Below, in pieces: positions 5,415-17,424 of a DNA stretch of 30,266 bases. The translations under genes were made by a program, and so were the position numbers. Below the pieces are notes generated by a model, which worked only from the letters and a program-made list of their open reading frames with translations, searched no databases and had not been told where the DNA came from. Each line of letters opens with the position of its first letter. Within the stretch, counting starts at the first letter, position 1. Source of the stretch: a virus; IMG/VR virus record IMGVR_UViG_3300000117_000146, positions 1-30,266 of that record. The stretch is one strand, 5' to 3'.

Positions 5415-5663
5415 ATGAGTTGGGATTATTACGATATTAAGAAAGAAGAAATGCTTACAAACGAAAATAAAGAAGCACTCGATAAGATAACTGAACGAGT
5501 AAAAACAGCGTTTGAAGGTATAGACCACGATGTCCTGTTGAGTGCTTTTGCTCCTCATGGCAGAACAAAGTACAAAGATAAACAAGAATTAGTGAATCAT
5601 TTAACTAAGGTTGCCATTGAGAGAATTAAGAAGATTGGTTCTAAAAATTGGGACGGTGATTAA
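5415..5663 (+). CDS. Small protein with MSWDYYD N-terminus (class A tag)
   Basis: An 82-residue acidic/helical protein. An ATG at 5406 is in frame, but ATG 5415 is preferred: GAGATGATTAAG just before it corresponds to the SD-spacer GAGGTGATTAAA used elsewhere, and this start gives the N-terminus MSWDYY. That matches MTWNWYN (8032) and MTWNYYN (8986). The rest shows a helical charged region, then a segment rich in mixed residues (DVLLSAFAPHGRT) and a basic C-terminal helix. No family is recognised. It is followed with a one-base gap by another M(S/T)W protein. Confidence 0.75.
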   Translation: MSWDYYDIKKEEMLTNENKEALDKITERVKTAFEGIDHDVLLSAFAPHGRTKYKDKQELVNHLTKVAIERIKKIGSKNWDGD

Positions 5664-5664
5664 A

Positions 5665-5970
5665 ATGAGTTGGGAAGAAATATTAAAAGGAACAGTTAGA
5701 CCAAGAGAAAAAATGAACATGAATGTATTCCAATATCAACACAGATTGTTTGATGGTATAGAAGAAGTTATGCCAGAAATAAACGGATTAACAAATCTAC
5801 ACAGACAAAAGGTTCCTGAATTCGAGGCTGATACAGAAAGTACGCTTTGGATAATAGATAAACATTTAACGAAGCGCAAAATAAACCAACCTAATGTTGA
5901 TAGTATTACTATTATAAAGCAGATTATTAAAGATTTAACAGATAACTTAAACACAAGGAGGCCGAATTAA
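5665..5970 (+). CDS. Small protein with MSWEEILK N-terminus (class B tag)
   Basis: A 101-residue protein. ATG 5665 follows a perfect GGTGATTAAA, whose TAA is the previous gene's stop, so the upstream in-frame TTG at 5611 is rejected. The first residues MSWEEILKG match MTWQDVLKE of the gene at 8370. The remainder is polar and helical with no recognisable catalytic motif. The gene belongs to the small-protein cassette between portal and ligase and ends by overlapping the next start (TTAATG). Confidence 0.75.
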   Translation: MSWEEILKGTVRPREKMNMNVFQYQHRLFDGIEEVMPEINGLTNLHRQKVPEFEADTESTLWIIDKHLTKRKINQPNVDSITIIKQIIKDLTDNLNTRRPN

Positions 5971-6208: not shown

Positions 6209-8035
6209 ATGTCGGTTATCATAAAAAATATTGATGAACGAACTATGGAAAGTGCGAAGACTAAGAAGGAAAAAAATGAGGAAGAAATTCAAGATACCCA
6301 GAATAAAAAGTATAAGGATTGGAAATCCCTACTTACCAAACTAGGTAGAATCTCTGCCTCTAAGTCGCATAGTGACAAAAGAAAACATTTCAATTCTCTA
6401 ACCAGTTCGTATAGAGGTGCTGCTAAACCCAAAGTAAAACATGAGAGAATATTATTTTCTTTGGATAAGTTGAAAGAAAGGAGTTACATTTTCGATGAAA
6501 TTAAGAATGCCAAGGGTGACTTCGTAAAGATAAGTCCCGAAGAACTAGAAAATAAAATAAAAGATTTAGTTCTATCTAAACAAGTTACAAGCGTAGCACA
6601 CGGGATTATCTTTGAAGCAAGGCCACCCATTGTAAGAGAAGAATTATTACAAGCCTTAGATGATATTACTACTCACGAAGTAAAAATCGAAGACCAGTAT
6701 GACAAGGAGAAAGAGGGAGACGAGAAAGGACAATCGTATTTTATTTCAGTATATACCCTAGACCAGTCTGACTTGAAAGACATAGACAAGATAGTTAAGG
6801 ATAAAGTTGAGGTATTCAATTCGTTTGAGGGAGACTCTTATGATATAGAAACCACTTTACTAGAAGTGATGGTAGAATTATTTCACGATGTCTATGGGGA
6901 AGCACCAAACTATGCTATTAGAAAGGAGCCAAAATTATTAGATTATTTAGGGGCTATAACAGGAATGCTTAGGTCTAAGTCTAAGGGAGCCAAAGGCCGA
7001 GGAATACAAACTTCGGAAGGAGTTGTTCCAGAATTTATTGGTGAGAAGGTCTTACCTAAAGAAGACATCACTTCCCTACTTTCTAATATAGATAGGACTA
7101 TGGATAGATTTGTTGAGCAAAGGGTCACTATCGAAGATACCATTTCTCGCCTACAGGACATAGATATTGCCCAACAGGTAAAGGAATATAATAAGAGTAT
7201 TCAAGAAGGTATTGATTCTACAACAGAAAAAATCGAAGAATTATCTGAAAGAGGTAAAGAACTTCAGAAAAAATTAAAATTTGCTAAAAAACAAATGAAG
7301 GACTTCGACGAAGATGCAAAGGAGACGGATTCTGACGGAAACCGAACCGCCTACGGAAAAATTAAAGATGTAGTTAATCAGTCACAAAAGGCATTAGACA
7401 TAGTTGCTGAAGAATTCGATAAGGGCGTTGCACAGTTAGACAGGTATAAGGCGCAGGGAGTAGGCGACGAAAAAGAGTTTACAGACGCTATGGAGAGACA
7501 AGTATCTGAGCAGATTTCTCAACTAGATAAGTTACAAAAGAGAATTAAGGATTATACAGTTCAATTAGATATTGTCAATCCAAAAGAAAAGGGTAAGACT
7601 ATAGCAGAAGTAATGGAAGAAGTCGAATCAACTAAGCCCGAAAAAATAGAGGAATCTAAAAAACCAATCGGTTCTAGGAGTAGGACAATTAACCCGAAGG
7701 GTATGGAAGGCAGTGTCTTCAGACAACACATTTACGCCCTAACAGAATTTCAACAAGTTATGCAGAAACTTTCAGAGAAACTAGAAGTAGAAATGAAAGA
7801 AGCAGAAGAATATGCTAAAGAGCATGAACAGGGAATAGAAAGAAGACTCAAAAATGCAGCAGAGCAAGTTACTATGGAAGATGATGAAGAGTTTTCTAAT
7901 CTATTATCTCAACTAGGGATGGAAGAACCATCATCCACCGAAGACGATTTAGATGACATTCAGAAGTTGGTTTATAGGGCACTACAACTCAAAAGAAAAA
8001 TGAAGAAAATTAACAAAAGGAGTAGATTCTCATGA
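6209..8035 (+). CDS. 608-residue coiled-coil virion-associated protein, unknown
   Basis: A large hydrophilic protein with start ATG after GAGGTGGCTTATC. Residues about 280-470 and 520-600 are long Glu/Lys/Gln-rich heptad-like helices, expected to form coiled coils. Residues about 60-230 look more globular, with regular hydrophobic spacing. There is no signal peptide, membrane segment or catalytic motif. Size and location inside the late block suggest an internal head protein or an assembly factor rather than an enzyme. It ends with an ATGA overlap to the next gene. Function unknown. Confidence 0.7.
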   Translation: MSVIIKNIDERTMESAKTKKEKNEEEIQDTQNKKYKDWKSLLTKLGRISASKSHSDKRKHFNSLTSSYRGAAKPKVKHERILFSLDKLKERSYIFDEIKNAKGDFVKISPEELENKIKDLVLSKQVTSVAHGIIFEARPPIVREELLQALDDITTHEVKIEDQYDKEKEGDEKGQSYFISVYTLDQSDLKDIDKIVKDKVEVFNSFEGDSYDIETTLLEVMVELFHDVYGEAPNYAIRKEPKLLDYLGAITGMLRSKSKGAKGRGIQTSEGVVPEFIGEKVLPKEDITSLLSNIDRTMDRFVEQRVTIEDTISRLQDIDIAQQVKEYNKSIQEGIDSTTEKIEELSERGKELQKKLKFAKKQMKDFDEDAKETDSDGNRTAYGKIKDVVNQSQKALDIVAEEFDKGVAQLDRYKAQGVGDEKEFTDAMERQVSEQISQLDKLQKRIKDYTVQLDIVNPKEKGKTIAEVMEEVESTKPEKIEESKKPIGSRSRTINPKGMEGSVFRQHIYALTEFQQVMQKLSEKLEVEMKEAEEYAKEHEQGIERRLKNAAEQVTMEDDEEFSNLLSQLGMEEPSSTEDDLDDIQKLVYRALQLKRKMKKINKRSRFS

Positions 8036-8373
8036 CTTGGAATTGGTACAATGAAGATATAGCAAAGGCGGAAAGTGACATACTATCGTCGTTAGATAAG
8101 AAGCAAAAGAAGGCCTTGAAGAAAACTTTACAGGCGGCAGAGCCATCCGAGTATTTCGGTCAAGATTTTACTAGATTGGGTGAATTGTTAGACATGATGA
8201 AGGAATTGGATTTAATTAAGTCTGATGAAAAATTATCTAAGAAGATGGAGACTATGGATGAGAGCAATCTAGATATATTAGCCACAGCCAGCAAACTCCG
8301 TAAAGAGTACGAAACCCTCTACAGGCAGATTCGGAAATTAGTATATCCAAAGAAAGGAGGCGACTTGAGATGA
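8032..8373 (+). CDS. Small protein with MTWNWYN N-terminus (class A tag)
   Basis: A 113-residue helical, lysine-rich protein linked to both neighbours by four-base ATGA overlaps. The first 16 residues align with those of the protein at 8986: MTWN, aromatic, YN, then acidic residues and a lysine leading to ES. The rest is amphipathic helix without a recognised domain. The tag, not the body, is conserved between the paralogue-like proteins. This suggests a shared targeting peptide on different bodies, or very diverged duplicates. Confidence 0.75.
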   Translation: MTWNWYNEDIAKAESDILSSLDKKQKKALKKTLQAAEPSEYFGQDFTRLGELLDMMKELDLIKSDEKLSKKMETMDESNLDILATASKLRKEYETLYRQIRKLVYPKKGGDLR

Positions 8374-8750
8374 CATGGCAAGATGTATTAAAAGAAGAGA
8401 AACCAACAATAAGTTTAGAAGAGTTTATTGAGAAAAATATTTATTCGATTAAAGAAGGCTACGCATCAGCAGATTCTAGTTTTTATACAGACACTGGTGG
8501 GTTTAGAAAACCGATTAACAAACCTTATGTGGTCGATTTGAAAGACAATCATGGAAGACTACAAACAAGGGCATACGATAAATTAGAAGAAATGGGAATC
8601 AAAACTGATGGTTATGTTGTTGATATACCAAGTAGCGGAACCATAATTACTATTCGTAGAGGGACTCTTAGCGGGTATAAAGGACATAGCGACTACTTTG
8701 ATGATGAACATGGCCACGATAGCATAGACCCAAATAGGTTGGTGGAATAA
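8370..8750 (+). CDS. Small protein with MTWQDVLK N-terminus (class B tag)
   Basis: A 126-residue protein with strong SD GGAGG and an ATGA overlap with the previous gene. The N-terminus MTWQDVLKE is followed by an acidic helix. From about residue 35 a glycine-containing, beta-rich body follows (GYVVDIPSSGTIITIRRGTLSGYKGH). The C-terminus is His/Asp-rich (DDEHGHDS) and could bind metal, though no known motif is matched. The stop overlaps the start of the 76-residue tag protein. Confidence 0.72.
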   Translation: MTWQDVLKEEKPTISLEEFIEKNIYSIKEGYASADSSFYTDTGGFRKPINKPYVVDLKDNHGRLQTRAYDKLEEMGIKTDGYVVDIPSSGTIITIRRGTLSGYKGHSDYFDDEHGHDSIDPNRLVE

Positions 8751-8980
8751 TGACAGAACAAAACGAAGTATTACTCTTGCTAAAAGAATTAGTGAACCGA
8801 GTACAGCAATTAGAAAGCGTAGCATACAATAATGACAATGTTCTGATGAAATCGGGATTTGTCGTAACTAACAGCCCAACGCCGTCAATGAATAATAAGG
8901 CGGCTTCTACTTTTAACATGGATGATGTAGCGAACATGTCCTTCGATGACATGGCAAAGATTATTCAGAAGATGGAGTGA
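8750..8980 (+). CDS. 76-residue protein sharing the scaffold's C-terminal peptide
   Basis: The first ~22 residues form an amphipathic, leucine-rich helix (VLLLLKELVNRVQQLE) that probably oligomerises. A Ser/Asn/Pro linker follows. The last 20 residues carry FNMDDVANMSFDDMAKI. The same MDDVANMS occurs at the very C-terminus of the protease-scaffold (codons 13531-13554), and the DNA is also nearly identical (ATGGATGATGTAGC then AACATGTC). In many phages the scaffold C-terminus binds the coat protein, so this small protein may dock on the same coat site. It sits between two M(S/T)W-tagged genes. Confidence 0.78.
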   Translation: MTEQNEVLLLLKELVNRVQQLESVAYNNDNVLMKSGFVVTNSPTPSMNNKAASTFNMDDVANMSFDDMAKIIQKME

Positions 8981-8985
8981 TTTAG

Positions 8986-9246
8986 ATGACTTGGAATTAT
9001 TACAACGATGAAGAAATAAAAAAGAGTGAAAGTTTTAGCATGTTCATGCGAGTTAGTGTCATGTTAGAAAAAGATGGAGAAGGGATTGATATTACTCAAA
9101 CTAGAATGTCTGAAAGAAGTTTACATAGTATAGTTGAAGATATTTTAAAACAGGCAATCGGTGAAAAGTATTCTGACGAAGTAGAAGATGAAGATGAAGA
9201 GATACTCATCGAAGTAACCATTGATGATATTTCAGAAAATAGGTGA
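8986..9246 (+). CDS. Small acidic protein with MTWNYYN N-terminus (class A tag)
   Basis: An 86-residue protein with a start after GAGTGATTTAG. The opening MTWNYYND is shared with the 8032 protein. The C-terminal third is strongly acidic (about residues 64-80, mostly Asp/Glu). The body contains a short hydrophobic strand pattern (MFMRVSVMLEKDG), suggesting a small alpha/beta fold. No known family is recognised. It ends overlapping the SD of the following gene. Confidence 0.75.
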   Translation: MTWNYYNDEEIKKSESFSMFMRVSVMLEKDGEGIDITQTRMSERSLHSIVEDILKQAIGEKYSDEVEDEDEEILIEVTIDDISENR

Positions 9247-9857: not shown

Positions 9858-12380
9858 ATGCCATTAACCGGCCTTCTATTTGAGAAGGAAACTGAATCCG
9901 TCTCAAGCAAAATACTCTCACTTTTTGAAAAGACTAGAGTAGCCTATCTTTCCGCTAAGAGTGACCCTAAGAACTACGGGTCTAGATGGAGAAAGGCAAT
10001 AGAAGACATTAGAGATGAATACGATAATGTAGATTACTTGGGTGGCCAACTCCAAGAATACTTAGCAAGAGATATCATAGAAAATAAAAATGCTATGAAT
10101 CCCGAAAGCCCTACTGCTTCAGAAGTCTACAACGCAATTAAAATGCTACGCTTCGAATCAGATGAAGTACAAGACCCATTTGCAAAACGCTTCAAAGGAA
10201 ATGTTTTGGAAGCCTTAATGGAAGATAGTGGAGTTATGATTAAATTTATTCACTATGCTTTGAGAACAGATGATGAAACCCTACCGGATAAATTATATGA
10301 CATCAAAGATATTGACCCCGACGACATTACAGTTGGATTGAAAGGTCTAGACTTAGACCCTAAAGATATCCCACTTTATATTACCGAACATTACGGAGAC
10401 GGTAAAGATTCTAAAAAGATTGAAAGTAAGTTTAAGAATGGCCTTTCTCTATTGAAATTATTTTTCTTATCCAAGAACACTGAAGAAGATTGGAATAAGT
10501 TACTAGGCGTACAATTAAAGAAGGCTGAGAAATCTCAAGAAGAAAAGGCTGTAGTAGATTTCATTATTCCCAACAAGCCAATGTATAGAATATTTGAATT
10601 AGAAGATATTAACGAACTACAGGGATTTAGTGGAGAATGGGTCGTACAAGAAAAATATGACGGCATGAGAATACAGATTCATAAGATAGATAATAAAATT
10701 AAAATCTATTCATATAATGAAAAAGATATTACTGATAAATGCAAGGCCCAAGTCGAAGTAATGAAAAAGAAAAACTTTGGAGATTGTATTTTAGATGCAG
10801 AGTTAATCCTATTTGATGAAGAAGAGGCACTACATAGAGCAGATACAATTGCCCATGTTTTTAAAAATCAGCATCCCGATGCAACATTAAGGGCACATGT
10901 ATTCGATATAATGAGACATGAAGAAAGAAGTATGGCAGGAGAAGAACTTAGAGAAAGAATAGATATCCTATTCAATAATTATTCTATGCACTCGGATGAG
11001 AGCCTAGCATTCCCTTCTAAGAAAGATACTAGAATTGCTGACAATCTAAAGGACATTAAAGAATATAGTGAAACTATTATGGGGATGCCCACTGCTGAAG
11101 GGGTAGTCATAAAGGACATTACTTCTACCTATTACATAGGGACTAAGAAAAACCCAAAGTGGATTAAATGGAAGAAGTTCGTAGACTTAGATTTAATTGT
11201 TTTAGATAAGAAGAAAACAAAATCAAATATGTTTTCATACACTTTAGGTGCAGGGCCAGCAGAAGGCGAAGGAAGACACATTAAAGAGTTAGACAAAATA
11301 AAATACATGGATGTTGGTAAGGCTAACAATACCAAAATAGATGTAGATACTGGAGATATTATTAGAGTTAAAGTAGATGAAGTTAAGTTTAATGGTGAGA
11401 AATATACTATTTATGGTTCCACTGTTATAGAAATACCCGAAGTAGAATACCCCGATAAAATAATTACTTTGGAAATGCTATCCAAAGAAACCAAGAAGAG
11501 TTTGAAATTTAAGACTAAGGCATTAGAAAAAGGAATTCTAGTTACAGATTATGTTCATGGAGAAGCGATATTGAAATCTATGGACGGGTTCACTTTCTAT
11601 GAATTTGAAAAGGATAACTTAATGTCTAAACATGCCATGATGAATTTAGATTCTTGGAAAACCGATGCCGAGAATATAATGAAAACTAAGCAAAGTGAAT
11701 TAACAGTGGCGGCATTTCAAGCACTAAAAGAAAAGGGCCCCATGTCAATAAAAGAATTACATAATTTCTTAGTTAAGGAACATGGAAGATTATATGATAG
11801 CGTATTAGGAGTACAGAAGGCAGGAGACATGTCTAGATTAGAGGAGTGGTTTAATTCTAGAGATGGCATAACCTACAACCATAAAGAAAAGAAGTTCATG
11901 GCAGACTCCGACAAAATCATGTTGAGTGATAGTTACAAGACCCCTTCGGAATATAGAAAAGGGGAGTTCAAAGTATATTCTAGGAAGGATGATGACCTAA
12001 CCTTAGCAATTAATCTTTCAGAAGAAACAATGTACTGGACAATAGACATTAATTCAGATGATGATATATTTGACCTATTTGGTAAGGCGGGTAAATTCCC
12101 TTCCGAAGTCTCTACTAACATTTCACCCAATTCTAAAACCATTGATGAAGGAGAGATAGAGTTAGGCGTTCAAAGAGAAGGCTACCATGAATATTTCCTC
12201 AGAGGAAATAAATTTGAAACCAAAATGCACTTTAGAGTAGTTCCTATGGATAATAAGAAAATTTGGATAGCATGGACTGGCTATAAACAAACTGCGGCAG
12301 ATAAAGATGGCGACGAAGGACTTTGGGATATTAATGAAGATAAATATTCTAAGTTAGTAATAAATAAAGAAAAACCATAA
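9858..12380 (+). CDS. ATP-dependent DNA ligase with large C-terminal extension
   Basis: All nucleotidyltransferase motifs are visible. Motif I is EKYDGMR with catalytic Lys at about residue 266, III is LDAELILF near 315, IIIa is AHVFDIMR near 345, IV is EGVVIKD near 414, and V is WIKWKK near 434-439. An OB-fold region follows to about 560. The enzyme seals nicks through a ligase-AMP intermediate. Residues 1-245 may replace the usual DNA-binding domain but are diverged. Residues about 565-840 are extra compared with ~560-600-residue archaeal ligases: a winged-helix-like part (MSIKELHNFLVKEHG, about 630) and a beta-rich part (about 700-825) vaguely resembling LigD phosphoesterase domains without the catalytic His/Asp/Arg. 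Its place just before the capsid protease is unusual. Confidence 0.92.
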   Translation: MPLTGLLFEKETESVSSKILSLFEKTRVAYLSAKSDPKNYGSRWRKAIEDIRDEYDNVDYLGGQLQEYLARDIIENKNAMNPESPTASEVYNAIKMLRFESDEVQDPFAKRFKGNVLEALMEDSGVMIKFIHYALRTDDETLPDKLYDIKDIDPDDITVGLKGLDLDPKDIPLYITEHYGDGKDSKKIESKFKNGLSLLKLFFLSKNTEEDWNKLLGVQLKKAEKSQEEKAVVDFIIPNKPMYRIFELEDINELQGFSGEWVVQEKYDGMRIQIHKIDNKIKIYSYNEKDITDKCKAQVEVMKKKNFGDCILDAELILFDEEEALHRADTIAHVFKNQHPDATLRAHVFDIMRHEERSMAGEELRERIDILFNNYSMHSDESLAFPSKKDTRIADNLKDIKEYSETIMGMPTAEGVVIKDITSTYYIGTKKNPKWIKWKKFVDLDLIVLDKKKTKSNMFSYTLGAGPAEGEGRHIKELDKIKYMDVGKANNTKIDVDTGDIIRVKVDEVKFNGEKYTIYGSTVIEIPEVEYPDKIITLEMLSKETKKSLKFKTKALEKGILVTDYVHGEAILKSMDGFTFYEFEKDNLMSKHAMMNLDSWKTDAENIMKTKQSELTVAAFQALKEKGPMSIKELHNFLVKEHGRLYDSVLGVQKAGDMSRLEEWFNSRDGITYNHKEKKFMADSDKIMLSDSYKTPSEYRKGEFKVYSRKDDDLTLAINLSEETMYWTIDINSDDDIFDLFGKAGKFPSEVSTNISPNSKTIDEGEIELGVQREGYHEYFLRGNKFETKMHFRVVPMDNKKIWIAWTGYKQTAADKDGDEGLWDINEDKYSKLVINKEKP

Positions 12381-12391: not shown

Positions 12392-12420
12392 CCAAATGGA
12401 AAAAGGAAGAGTTGAGGAAA

Positions 12421-13587
12421 ATGGGGTCTGCTGTTCTATCGCATAGAGAAAATGACTTCCAAATACTCAAAAGTCAAGACGATTTAATGATTGGAGGATA
12501 TGCAAGCATAGAAATCGTTGATAAACAGAATGACTTAATCACACTCAAAGCCTTACAAGATGCAGTAAACAATTACATGGAGCAATCAAAATTTAGAAAT
12601 GTAATGACAAACCATTCAAATGTCCAAGTAGGAGAAGTAGTAAAATCATATAGAGATAAAAATGGAAAAATATGGAAAACCGAAGTAGATGATGTGGGAT
12701 TTTTTGTAGTAATAAAATTAAGAGATGACATCGAAAAAGCCAAAGAAATAAACAGGGGAATTCGCAAAGGAACATTAAGGTCTTTTAGCATAGGGGGACA
12801 GGCACTTCAAAAAGTTAAAAAGCAACATTCGGAATTAGGCGAATACAGCGAAATTAGCAAACTAGAATTACACGAAGTGACTATCTGCGAAAAAGGAATT
12901 AATCCGGAAGCGAAATTCGATATTTTGAAACAAGAAAAAGAGGGAACGAAAATGACCGACAAACTAGAAAAAGCACTTGAGGAACTTGACACTCTATTAG
13001 AGGAAGTCAATACCCTAAGGAAAGAAGACGAGGAGAAATCCCCTGCGGCTATAGAAGACGCAGAAATGATGGACTCAGAAATGGTGGACACTGAAGAAAC
13101 TATGGAATACATGGATGGCGCAACAAAGGCCCAAACCACACTACATATGGAAACTGGGGAACCAGCAGACCGTGTAGTAATTAGTGGCGGAAAGCCAGTA
13201 GGAGAAAAGCAAGCAAAGGTCGTCAAGGCTTTTGACAATGGTGAAATTACTTCACTAAACCTTTCCCCTGATGTAATCGAGAAAGCATACTCGGAATACA
13301 AGTCAGAACAACTAGAGAAGATTGCTCTAGGTAACTTAGAAAAGACTTTTGCAAACCGCTTTAAGTCTGAAGTTTCTGAAAGAAACACTATCATTTCAAA
13401 GGCTAACTATGATGCAAAGTCTGAAGTTAGCGCACTAAAGGAAGAATTGGCTGACCTACGAAAGTCATTCTCTACTGGAAAATCTGAAATTCTCAAATCA
13501 CAGCAGACACCATCTGTTGCACTACCATCTATGGATGATGTAGCAAACATGTCATGGGCCGACTTAAACAGGCTCGCTGGAAATTGA
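12421..13587 (+). CDS. Prohead serine protease fused to scaffold
   Basis: A 388-residue protein. Residues 1-165 carry the XkdF/S78-like prohead-protease pattern: GYASIEIVDKQNDLIT near 26, the likely catalytic His in TNHSN (H65), the Ser in RSFSIGG (S123), and LHEVTICEKGINPEAKF near 148. The protease matures the capsid by cleaving scaffold and coat. From about residue 178 the protein becomes an acidic, coiled-coil scaffold with the C-terminal peptide MDDVANMSWADLNRLAGN. The ATG at 12421 follows GAGG. A TTG at 12412 is an in-frame alternative. An internal ATG with an SD at 12952 could make free scaffold. The major capsid gene follows directly. Confidence 0.9.
   Translation: MGSAVLSHRENDFQILKSQDDLMIGGYASIEIVDKQNDLITLKALQDAVNNYMEQSKFRNVMTNHSNVQVGEVVKSYRDKNGKIWKTEVDDVGFFVVIKLRDDIEKAKEINRGIRKGTLRSFSIGGQALQKVKKQHSELGEYSEISKLELHEVTICEKGINPEAKFDILKQEKEGTKMTDKLEKALEELDTLLEEVNTLRKEDEEKSPAAIEDAEMMDSEMVDTEETMEYMDGATKAQTTLHMETGEPADRVVISGGKPVGEKQAKVVKAFDNGEITSLNLSPDVIEKAYSEYKSEQLEKIALGNLEKTFANRFKSEVSERNTIISKANYDAKSEVSALKEELADLRKSFSTGKSEILKSQQTPSVALPSMDDVANMSWADLNRLAGN
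12939..12954 (+). promoter_or_regulatory. Internal in-frame RBS and start for a free scaffold protein
   Basis: AGAGGGAACGAAAATG lies inside the protease-scaffold gene, exactly at the domain boundary (codon 178). The ATG is in frame and opens MTDKLEKALEEL, the first helix of the scaffold. An internal start making scaffold without protease is known for lambda C/Nu3. Here it is inferred from position and the purine-rich SD. Confidence 0.5.
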
Positions 13588-13600
13588 GGGGGAATCTTAA

Positions 13601-14962
13601 ATGGGATATATTAACACAATTAGAGACTTAGAAGCACAGACATACGGAATGGGTGGCGCATTTGGCGGCAACGATATTCTAAAGCAAGCGGGAGTAGTAC
13701 AGGGATTACATAGTGCTCACGATATTGCCGACGCTGCCGCAAGTGGCGTTACTGGAATTTCCACAACAACCGGACTTTACAATGTTCTTTACGGACAGAA
13801 AGTTTGGTCAATGCTAAACCGTGAAGTAAATGCACTTTCAATGATTTCAAAGAGGCCTTATTCTTCTTCGGGATGGAGAGTTCTAAAGAGCCGACCTTTC
13901 GGTGGCTCCGGAAACACCCTTGCAGAAGCACTTGTAAATGATTCAGATACGGCTAACTCCGGAATTGGAGACGATGCTCCTTCTGCTGATTTAATTGGTG
14001 GCGTTCCAGAAAACGCTGGACTTTCTACTGCGGCAGATGGTCTAGGTTCTATGGCTCCTACCTATGCTCAACTATTTATGAGCCCTAAAACTGTTGCACA
14101 CCAATTCGATTTCTCTGAATTGGCAATGGAAATGGCAAAGATTGACGATGGAATTGGAGATATTAGAGCGCAAATGCGTGAAGATATGGGAATTGCTCAC
14201 GCAGAAGCACAAAACATGATGCTTCTTATGCCTCTAGAACATTATGGTGAATCAACAAACCAATCTACAGGCCGTCTAGAAAACATCGAAAGAAACTACA
14301 CTTCTCTAAACAAGATTGTTACAAGTCGTGCAGAACTTTTGGCTATTGATGGTGGAGTTATTGCTACTGATACCGCAAGCGCAACAAACAACTTGGGTAA
14401 GATTTACGGAGATGAAAGGCACAGTGCAGCATCTTTCCTAGATTCTGAAGTAGACTTTGGTTCCGGATATGCTAGTGGAGATGTTCGCTCGCTAACACTA
14501 ACTCTACTTAACAACATGATTCGTAACCTACGAATTGCTGGCGGTTCTCCAAAGGTAATTCTAACAGGATATGACACAATTCAGTCTATTGCAGACCTAC
14601 TACAAAGCCAAGAAAGATTCATGGACAGAAAGGAAATAGTTCCTACTGTAAATGGTGTTCGTGGAGTTAAGGGAGCAGAAGTTGGATTTAGAGTTGCAAC
14701 ATACTACGACATCCCACTAATTCCTTGTAAGGATATGGCTTCTACAGGAAACGCAACTAGCAAACTAAGCGATTTGCTTTTCCTTGATACTGACCACATT
14801 TGGTTGGCTGTTATGAAACCTACACAATACTTCGAAGATGGTATTTCCAATGGAAACCCATTCGGTGTTGGTCGCCTAGGAAACCAAGCACTTTACCGCA
14901 CAATTGGTGAAGTCGGTTGTTCATTCTTTAAGGGACAAGGTAAGATTACCAACATTCAGTGA
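13601..14962 (+). CDS. Major capsid protein (HK97 fold)
   Basis: A 453-residue protein directly after the protease-scaffold, with SD GAGGGGG and a different codon bias from its neighbours (more GGA, GCA and CGT, fewer CTA-type choices), as expected for a highly expressed gene. Residues 1-60 are Gly/Ala-rich and may be the delta/N-arm region. About 85-110 (SSSGWRVLKSRPFGGSG) could be the E-loop. The C-terminal part has the P-domain-like helix and A-domain strands (GGSPKVILTGYDTIQSIADLLQ, DHIWLAVMKPTQYFED). It forms the icosahedral shell. The call rests on size, composition and gene order. Confidence 0.9.
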   Translation: MGYINTIRDLEAQTYGMGGAFGGNDILKQAGVVQGLHSAHDIADAAASGVTGISTTTGLYNVLYGQKVWSMLNREVNALSMISKRPYSSSGWRVLKSRPFGGSGNTLAEALVNDSDTANSGIGDDAPSADLIGGVPENAGLSTAADGLGSMAPTYAQLFMSPKTVAHQFDFSELAMEMAKIDDGIGDIRAQMREDMGIAHAEAQNMMLLMPLEHYGESTNQSTGRLENIERNYTSLNKIVTSRAELLAIDGGVIATDTASATNNLGKIYGDERHSAASFLDSEVDFGSGYASGDVRSLTLTLLNNMIRNLRIAGGSPKVILTGYDTIQSIADLLQSQERFMDRKEIVPTVNGVRGVKGAEVGFRVATYYDIPLIPCKDMASTGNATSKLSDLLFLDTDHIWLAVMKPTQYFEDGISNGNPFGVGRLGNQALYRTIGEVGCSFFKGQGKITNIQ

Positions 14963-16537: not shown

Positions 16538-16759
16538 ATGGTTTTTACTGGCTTTGATGAAGGCGCAATGGCGTATGATTTGCAGAGAGCGCATTCTGCT
16601 GATATTTGGTTTCTAAGATTTAGAGCCTATTTTTGGGGAAGTTGTGCGGCGTTAGCGTCATTTCTAATTGGGAATATATTAGGAGTATTTGATATTAACA
16701 TATTAGGATGGTGCTTAGATGGTTTACAATCCGCATGGTCACATACTCTTGGTGGTTGA
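16538..16759 (+). CDS. Small one-transmembrane protein
   Basis: A 73-residue protein. The N-terminal ~28 residues are soluble and end in Arg-rich FRAYF. A hydrophobic helix spans about 31-53 (GSCAALASFLIGNILGVF), and a short amphipathic C-terminus follows. It is placed between the two-TM protein and the GTPase and ends inside the GTPase's candidate SD. A partner or adaptor in the same membrane assembly is the simplest reading. Confidence 0.7.
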   Translation: MVFTGFDEGAMAYDLQRAHSADIWFLRFRAYFWGSCAALASFLIGNILGVFDINILGWCLDGLQSAWSHTLGG

Positions 16760-16761
16760 AT

Positions 16762-17424
16762 GTGTCAGTACTCGCAGGTTTCGCAATTGTAATTACTGAA
16801 GCGGCGATAGCATTTTACAAAAGAATACATGCTATTCCGTTTGGCATTTATGGTGCAACAATGGTAGGTAAAACTACTTTAAACCATCAACTTAGAACTA
16901 GAGGGGAAGTACCCGATATTAAAAAAAGAACAGTGGGCTTACACAAAGGTACTAGAAAAACAATAAAGGTCGAGGGAGAAACCCATACCCTAAAGTCAGC
17001 AGATGTTGGAGGAGAATCTTTCTATTGGAAAGAATGGATTGCCGACATGAAAAGAAGAAAGGTCAAATATATTATTTTTATGATTGACCATAGACATCTA
17101 GATAGCGGGGCTAACCTAGACCATCAACTCGCTTGGAAGTTTTTAGTGGATGCCGTTTGTGCTAATACTTGGCCCAATGGAAAAAAGAAAAAGGAACCCG
17201 ACTACCCTATAGCGGTAGGAATGTGGGCGAATAAATATGATATTTGGGGAAAAAAATATAGTCACGACGGAGAGATTCAAGACCATCCTATATTCGAGCC
17301 TTTTAAATATGGAATGCAAAGGTTAAATGATAAGGGCATACCAACTTTCAAATACATCGTGTCGGCTAAATCCCAACCGGAAATGGTCTACCTAGGCGTA
17401 ACTACAATGTTAAAGGATTATTGA
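16762..17424 (+). CDS. Membrane-anchored Arf/SR-beta-like small GTPase
   Basis: With GTG 16762 as start (SD GGTGG six bases upstream), the protein is 220 residues. In-frame starts at 16708 and 16735 would overlap the previous gene. A hydrophobic anchor spans residues 2-19. G motifs are all visible: G1 GATMVGKTT (31-39), switch-I Thr in RTVGLH (T57), G3 DVGGE (81-85), G4 NKYD (157-160), G5 SAK (201-203). The D-x-G-G box plus TVG is typical of the Arf/SR-beta branch, and the N-terminal anchor resembles SR-beta. The residue corresponding to the catalytic Gln is Glu85. Likely a nucleotide switch on membrane or virion; target unknown. Confidence 0.85.
   Translation: MSVLAGFAIVITEAAIAFYKRIHAIPFGIYGATMVGKTTLNHQLRTRGEVPDIKKRTVGLHKGTRKTIKVEGETHTLKSADVGGESFYWKEWIADMKRRKVKYIIFMIDHRHLDSGANLDHQLAWKFLVDAVCANTWPNGKKKKEPDYPIAVGMWANKYDIWGKKYSHDGEIQDHPIFEPFKYGMQRLNDKGIPTFKYIVSAKSQPEMVYLGVTTMLKDY

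Follow-up and report, generated by a model that had tools for sequence, protein, structure and literature searches.

A known case of a small protein that borrows the tail of a scaffold is that of phage 80alpha and the satellite SaPI1, in which the 80alpha scaffolding protein (SP) and the 72-residue CpmB have a common C-terminal coat-binding peptide that was seen by cryo-EM (PMC5644958). A second related system is that of the T4 capsid-targeting sequences (CTS), in which proteins of diverse kinds begin with a short address whose key residues are at positions 4 and 7 (PMC9026906). The first-pass annotation of the DNA considered here, which described a scaffold's C-terminal peptide on a separate small protein, knew of no named equivalent; the pair 80alpha SP and SaPI1 CpmB is one (PMC5644958). 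A scaffold-tail peptide on a small protein is therefore already known, and of more interest in the present work is that the motif recurs throughout the late region. Magroviruses, the group to which this DNA may belong, infect marine Poseidoniales (PMC10160649, PMC12999244), and in one of them the morphogenesis and replication genes were reported to be transcribed in opposite directions (PMC12999244).

The window, that is, the whole stretch of 30,266 nucleotides analysed here, holds the head and tail module of a tailed virus, with terminase, portal, DNA ligase, S78 protease-scaffold, SU10-like major capsid protein (MCP) and tail tube. The genes and peptides on which the comparison turns are the following.

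8750 to 8980, + strand: 76-residue protein, with an N-terminal helix (residues 2-28), a conserved DN-x-LMKSG-x-VV core, a variable linker and the C-terminal tag
8918 to 8977, + strand: C-terminal tag of the 76-residue protein, MDDVANMSFDDMAKIIQKME
12412 to 13587, + strand: S78 prohead protease fused to a coiled-coil scaffold (Pfam Peptidase_S78, 4.4e-9; exact start codon uncertain)
13531 to 13584, + strand: C-terminal tag of the scaffold, MDDVANMSWADLNRLAGN
13601 to 14962, + strand: MCP (Pfam SU10_MCP, 1.1e-5; matches halovirus MCPs)

The haloviruses matched by the MCP are Druskaviridae, at 23-24% identity, and its near relatives are viral metagenome records. Membership in the Magrovirales was considered on a genome near 90-110 kb, a relation to tailed haloviruses and a Poseidoniales host. 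Given the halovirus-like MCP and the long relatives of 82-103 kb, the window appears to fit a magrovirus-like head module, a name that we take from the MCP matches and the size of the relatives. Magroviruses are uncultured. An ATP-dependent DNA ligase of 840 residues (9858-12380), which does not carry the tag, is encoded within the head module, after the small protein and before the scaffold, and has homologues at the same place in three related loci (L119, L120 and L322). A GTPase-like protein (16708-17424; weak Pfam Roc match, P-loop GATMVGKTT) is encoded amid the structural genes and is conserved in L322. This last contig (NZMJ01000101.1), filed under a bacterial Maricaulis MAG, holds a magrovirus-like head module that is complete, from portal and tagged genes through small protein and ligase to scaffold and MCP, and is probably a misbinned viral contig. 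Another record, IMGVR_UViG_3300021958_000021 (G029, 184,733 bases), has small proteins at both 76561 and 167418 and scaffold matches at both 71827 and 163272, and looks as if two related genomes had been joined or co-assembled.

The protein that precedes the MCP has the features of a prohead protease-scaffold, namely the S78 domain, the position directly upstream of the MCP and a coiled-coil C-terminal half. Its C-terminus had been noted to share the peptide MDDVANMS, followed by W/F-x-D, with that of the 76-residue protein, and the coordinates were confirmed: in the small protein the peptide covers residues 57-64 of 76, starts at 8918 and is followed by F-D-D, and in the scaffold it covers residues 374-381 of 391, starts at 13531 and is followed by W-A-D. 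It is the only 8-mer common to any two of the 34 proteins of the window, and a shared 8-mer of any kind arose in 0.7% of 300 shuffles. Near-identical DNA over about 22 bases had also been put forward as evidence; the two genes are indeed identical at 22/24 positions, but two independent codings of the peptide with the codon usage of the window agree at 19.8/24 positions on average and reach at least 22 in 15% of trials, so the DNA match is expected from codon usage and adds nothing to the peptide itself. A DNA duplication as the source of the 8-mer is, for the same reason, unneeded. Pfam had no match for the window member of the small family, and PHROG none for any of 25 members.

Relatives were gathered by scans with the MCP and with the small protein. 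The C-terminal motif, M-[S/D/E]-[W/F]-x-[D/E]-[I/L/M/V] with the first M rarely replaced by L or I, is present in 139/139 small-protein records (93/93 distinct) and in 156/156 scaffolds (122/122 distinct), all of the distinct scaffolds having the W. Among the loci fetched with the MCP, the small gene was found in all 52 that reach more than 5.5 kb beyond the scaffold on its upstream side, and every one of the 52 carries both tags. A variable stretch precedes the peptide in the small protein while the peptide itself is constant, and full-length profiles of one family match the other through the C-terminus. The proposal that a separate small, helical protein reuses a scaffold peptide is thus borne out, with both copies conserved, and the search for relatives whose small protein lacks the peptide returned none. 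As for co-evolution of the two C-tags beyond phylogeny, the partial Mantel correlation after removal of coat distance (r 0.23) is weak and indistinguishable from that of a control pair (0.26), so we claim a shared constraint and not co-evolution.

The motif extends beyond the two C-termini that had been noticed, to the N-termini of dozens of other late-region proteins. Scanning of ORFs revealed the N-terminal pattern M-[ST]-W-x-[DE]-[IV]-[LI]-K, and the form M-[ST]-W-x-D-I-L-K opens the proteins of about 67 clusters, which have their first 8 residues in common and are mostly encoded on the strand of the scaffold, upstream of it. A second form, M-x-W-[NDE]-[WFY]-Y-[NDE], is represented by 51 distinct examples. 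An unbiased test was made with a profile built from 115 C-tags only and run against 6,119 other ORFs, and 47 of its top 50 matches were at N-termini on the + strand. Upstream of the scaffold, 271/812 ORFs have tryptophan at residue 3, versus 32/954 downstream, and control positions have it in about 1-6%; the highest of these, residue 6, is probably explained by the many ORFs called from a start three codons upstream (e.g., MIKMSW). Across 20 long genomes, all 78 matches of the N-tag pattern fall on the strand of the head module, 74/78 of them within 25 kb upstream of the small gene, and the reversed pattern had no match in the same genomes. Six outgroup virus records gave no match to the N-tag pattern either, and the motif is absent from the scaffold C-termini of the haloviruses HCTV-1, HVTV-1 and HCTV-5. 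The scaffolds of these three haloviruses (L168, L171 and L172) have KSWEEED or KSWEQED some 25 residues before the C-terminus, which by sequence may faintly recall the S-W of the tag, without the I.

In a separate set of records, chosen only by the N-tag DNA pattern, 37/49 held the small-protein family, the 49 being the matches listed for that pattern and not a random sample; the other 12 among the matches listed included two with a related terminase and several with tags near the contig end. A profile search of these 49 listed records found no third gene with the C-form. One apparent match (L119, 5065-5235) was discarded as probably another frame of the MCP gene, since it is located downstream of the scaffold, where the MCP is expected. 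The N-arm of the MCP itself (residues about 20-35), G-N-x-[IVL]-[LM]-K-[QSA], is kept in most relatives; it was rejected as a tag, having a conserved ILK/LLK stretch but no W, and the shared 6-mer DILKQA is within chance. We found no paper in the literature that mentions MSWEDILK.

Five genes of the window carry the N-tag or a variant of it.

5415 to 5663, + strand: N-tagged protein (MSWDYYDIKK, second tag form), proposed cargo
5665 to 5970, + strand: N-tagged protein (MSWEEILK), proposed cargo; 3/3 homologues tagged
8032 to 8373, + strand: conserved 113-residue late protein with the N-terminal tag MTWNWYNEDIAK; 79/80 distinct homologues start with a W tag
8370 to 8750, + strand: N-tagged protein (MTWQDVLK), proposed cargo
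8986 to 9246, + strand: N-tagged protein (MTWNYYNDEEIKK, second tag form), proposed cargo; W tag kept in 6/6 homologues

The homologues of the 8032-8373 protein were matched on the body only, the first 20 residues being left out, and the W tags appear among them in varied forms, such as MTWDFYDNGEEFILK, MSWQSILK and MWERILK. Neighbouring families are tagged in 1/83 (5970 family) and 0/54 (9243 family) cases, which, set against 79/80, indicates that the tag belongs to particular proteins and not to the region. Most N-tagged proteins have no known domain, and single members match PAP2, EF-hand or a PHROG of head maturation proteases; the latter is a 174-residue protein (L095:6646-7170) that matches PHROG 976, and the usual protease is found elsewhere in its locus. 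No conserved residues were seen at positions 9-14, nor a conserved cleavage site just after the N-tag.

The pattern M-[S/T/D/E]-W-x-[D/E]-I fits what we take to be a capped helix start, with M...I as a hydrophobic staple, S/T/D as N-cap and D/E three residues on. The core of the tag reads as presenting W and I/L on one face of a helix. Models of both proteins, which are weak overall, start the last helix exactly at F65 in the small protein (after S64) and at W382 in the scaffold (after S381). The AlphaFold model of the 76-residue protein is of low confidence (mean pLDDT 61), the weak scaffold model has helices at 286-364, and the linker before the last helix is poorly predicted in both. The two forms of the tag differ, since in C-tags position 7 is mostly H and a [DE]x[IV]A-like lead-in is present, whereas N-tags have L/I at position 7, begin at M and have no lead-in. 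The difference between H and L/I could tune affinity or mean different sites, and together with the lead-in it implies that the two forms may have different partners.

Our preferred reading, which we regard as reasonably probable, is that the tag forms an N-capped amphipathic helix and serves as a short docking motif by which proteins are directed to the interior of the procapsid, being C-terminal on the scaffold and the small protein and N-terminal on cargo. Following the 80alpha precedent, the scaffold tag would most likely bind the inner face of the coat. The 76-residue protein, whose independent helical body ends in the same peptide, would use the binding site of the scaffold and, by analogy with the way CpmB shares the tail of the 80alpha SP, would act as a minor internal scaffold or adaptor. 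The carriers of the N-form (MSWxDILK or MTWDYYxIKK), which comprise the one conserved family at 8032-8373 and a changing set of mostly small proteins, would travel into the head as the T4 internal proteins do. The observations behind this reading are conservation, motif similarity, genomic distribution and the placement of the helix in low-confidence models; against it stand the haloviruses without the motif, the difference between C- and N-forms, the lack of a conserved cleavage site just after the N-tag, the weakness of the structural models and a C-tag covariation not above control. From these observations we infer packaging, the coat as receptor and one receptor for both forms, the product of the 13601 gene being the most likely receptor. 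The earlier idea that the shared peptide docks to the coat is plausible.

A narrower explanation, which we consider rather unlikely, holds that the coat is a receptor common to the two C-terminal peptides alone, with the small protein as a CpmB-like minor scaffold or size regulator, and that the N-terminal MSWxDILK is separate, convergent and of other purpose. It would account for the systematic H versus L/I difference at position 7 and for a lead-in confined to C-tags, and the precedent of CpmB requires no N-tags. A profile made from C-tags alone, however, picks N-termini in 47 of its top 50 matches, and the records chosen by the N-tag hold the small-protein family in 37/49 cases among the matches listed. 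The tag could instead dock to the prohead protease, the scaffold core or the portal and not to the coat, so that the protease would receive its substrates or the core its cargo, as might be suspected from a scaffold that is here itself fused to the protease and from the T4 CTS, which attaches to core proteins and which the prohead protease cuts off (PMC9026906). We find this distinctly improbable: the tag is at the far C-terminus of the scaffold, the end that contacts the coat in 80alpha, and the N-tag is not followed by a conserved cleavage site.

Hardly credible, finally, is a nucleic-acid origin, in which the N-terminal motif would mark start codons as a signal in DNA or mRNA, and the 8-mer shared in the window would be a recent DNA duplication. 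The serine at codon 2 of the N-tag is encoded by AGT in 67/75 cases, compared with 15% in scaffold genes, but AGT is raised at codon 2 elsewhere too (35/45 Ser in small proteins and 58/133 in other ORFs). The Leu, Lys and Glu/Gln codons vary within the tag, the C-tags use the same peptide far from any start codon, and codon usage accounts for the DNA match in the window, so that this explanation is largely refuted by synonymous variation and the C-terminal copies. The AGT use of the N-tag (67/75) is above the already raised codon-2 level of other genes.

Extending the docking-motif reading, we tentatively suggest, with a little less than even confidence, that in one virus order a single docking peptide serves as a general address code for the head, placed C-terminally on the scaffold and a dedicated small adaptor and N-terminally on fast-changing cargo, such that reading the tag would list the head proteins. 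If this holds, sequence alone could reveal the head cargo of an abundant group of marine archaeal viruses, dozens of genes of no known function would become candidate internal or injected proteins, and one motif would join the coat-binding tail of a scaffold (80alpha) and the address peptide of cargo (T4).

Among known systems, encapsulin targeting peptides resemble the tag by role: according to the available portions of PMC10960027 and others, a short cargo peptide leads there to loading inside an HK97-fold shell, as is proposed here, although encapsulins are cellular compartments without scaffold or maturation. Phage P1 DarA and Hdf, as far as the accessible part of their description goes (PMC12810830), are extra proteins on the inner capsid surface, a location predicted here, and were proposed to aid scaffolding; they are large folded proteins, unlike those studied here, and that part does not describe a short tag shared with the scaffold. 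Like CpmB, the 76-residue protein is small and mostly helical (76 vs 72 residues) and ends in the C-terminal peptide of the scaffold on a body of its own. Unlike CpmB, it has no RIIK, the 80alpha/CpmB helix-and-hook, in the C-tag columns of 93 distinct small proteins; CpmB is a satellite product that redirects capsid size, but the gene studied here belongs to the virus's own head module in 52/52 suitable loci, and coat binding, solved for 80alpha and CpmB, is here a prediction. For these reasons the 76-residue protein may at most work like CpmB, and we do not class it as one. With the T4 internal proteins (PMC9026906, PMC3012670) the N-tagged proteins share a short N-terminal address on many unrelated, fast-changing proteins, and the key residues 4 and 7 of the T4 CTS have the same i,i+3 spacing as W3 and I6 of the tag. 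The T4 CTS binds the core and is cleaved by the prohead protease; unlike in the T4 internal proteins, a version of the tag is found here on the C-terminus of the scaffold itself.
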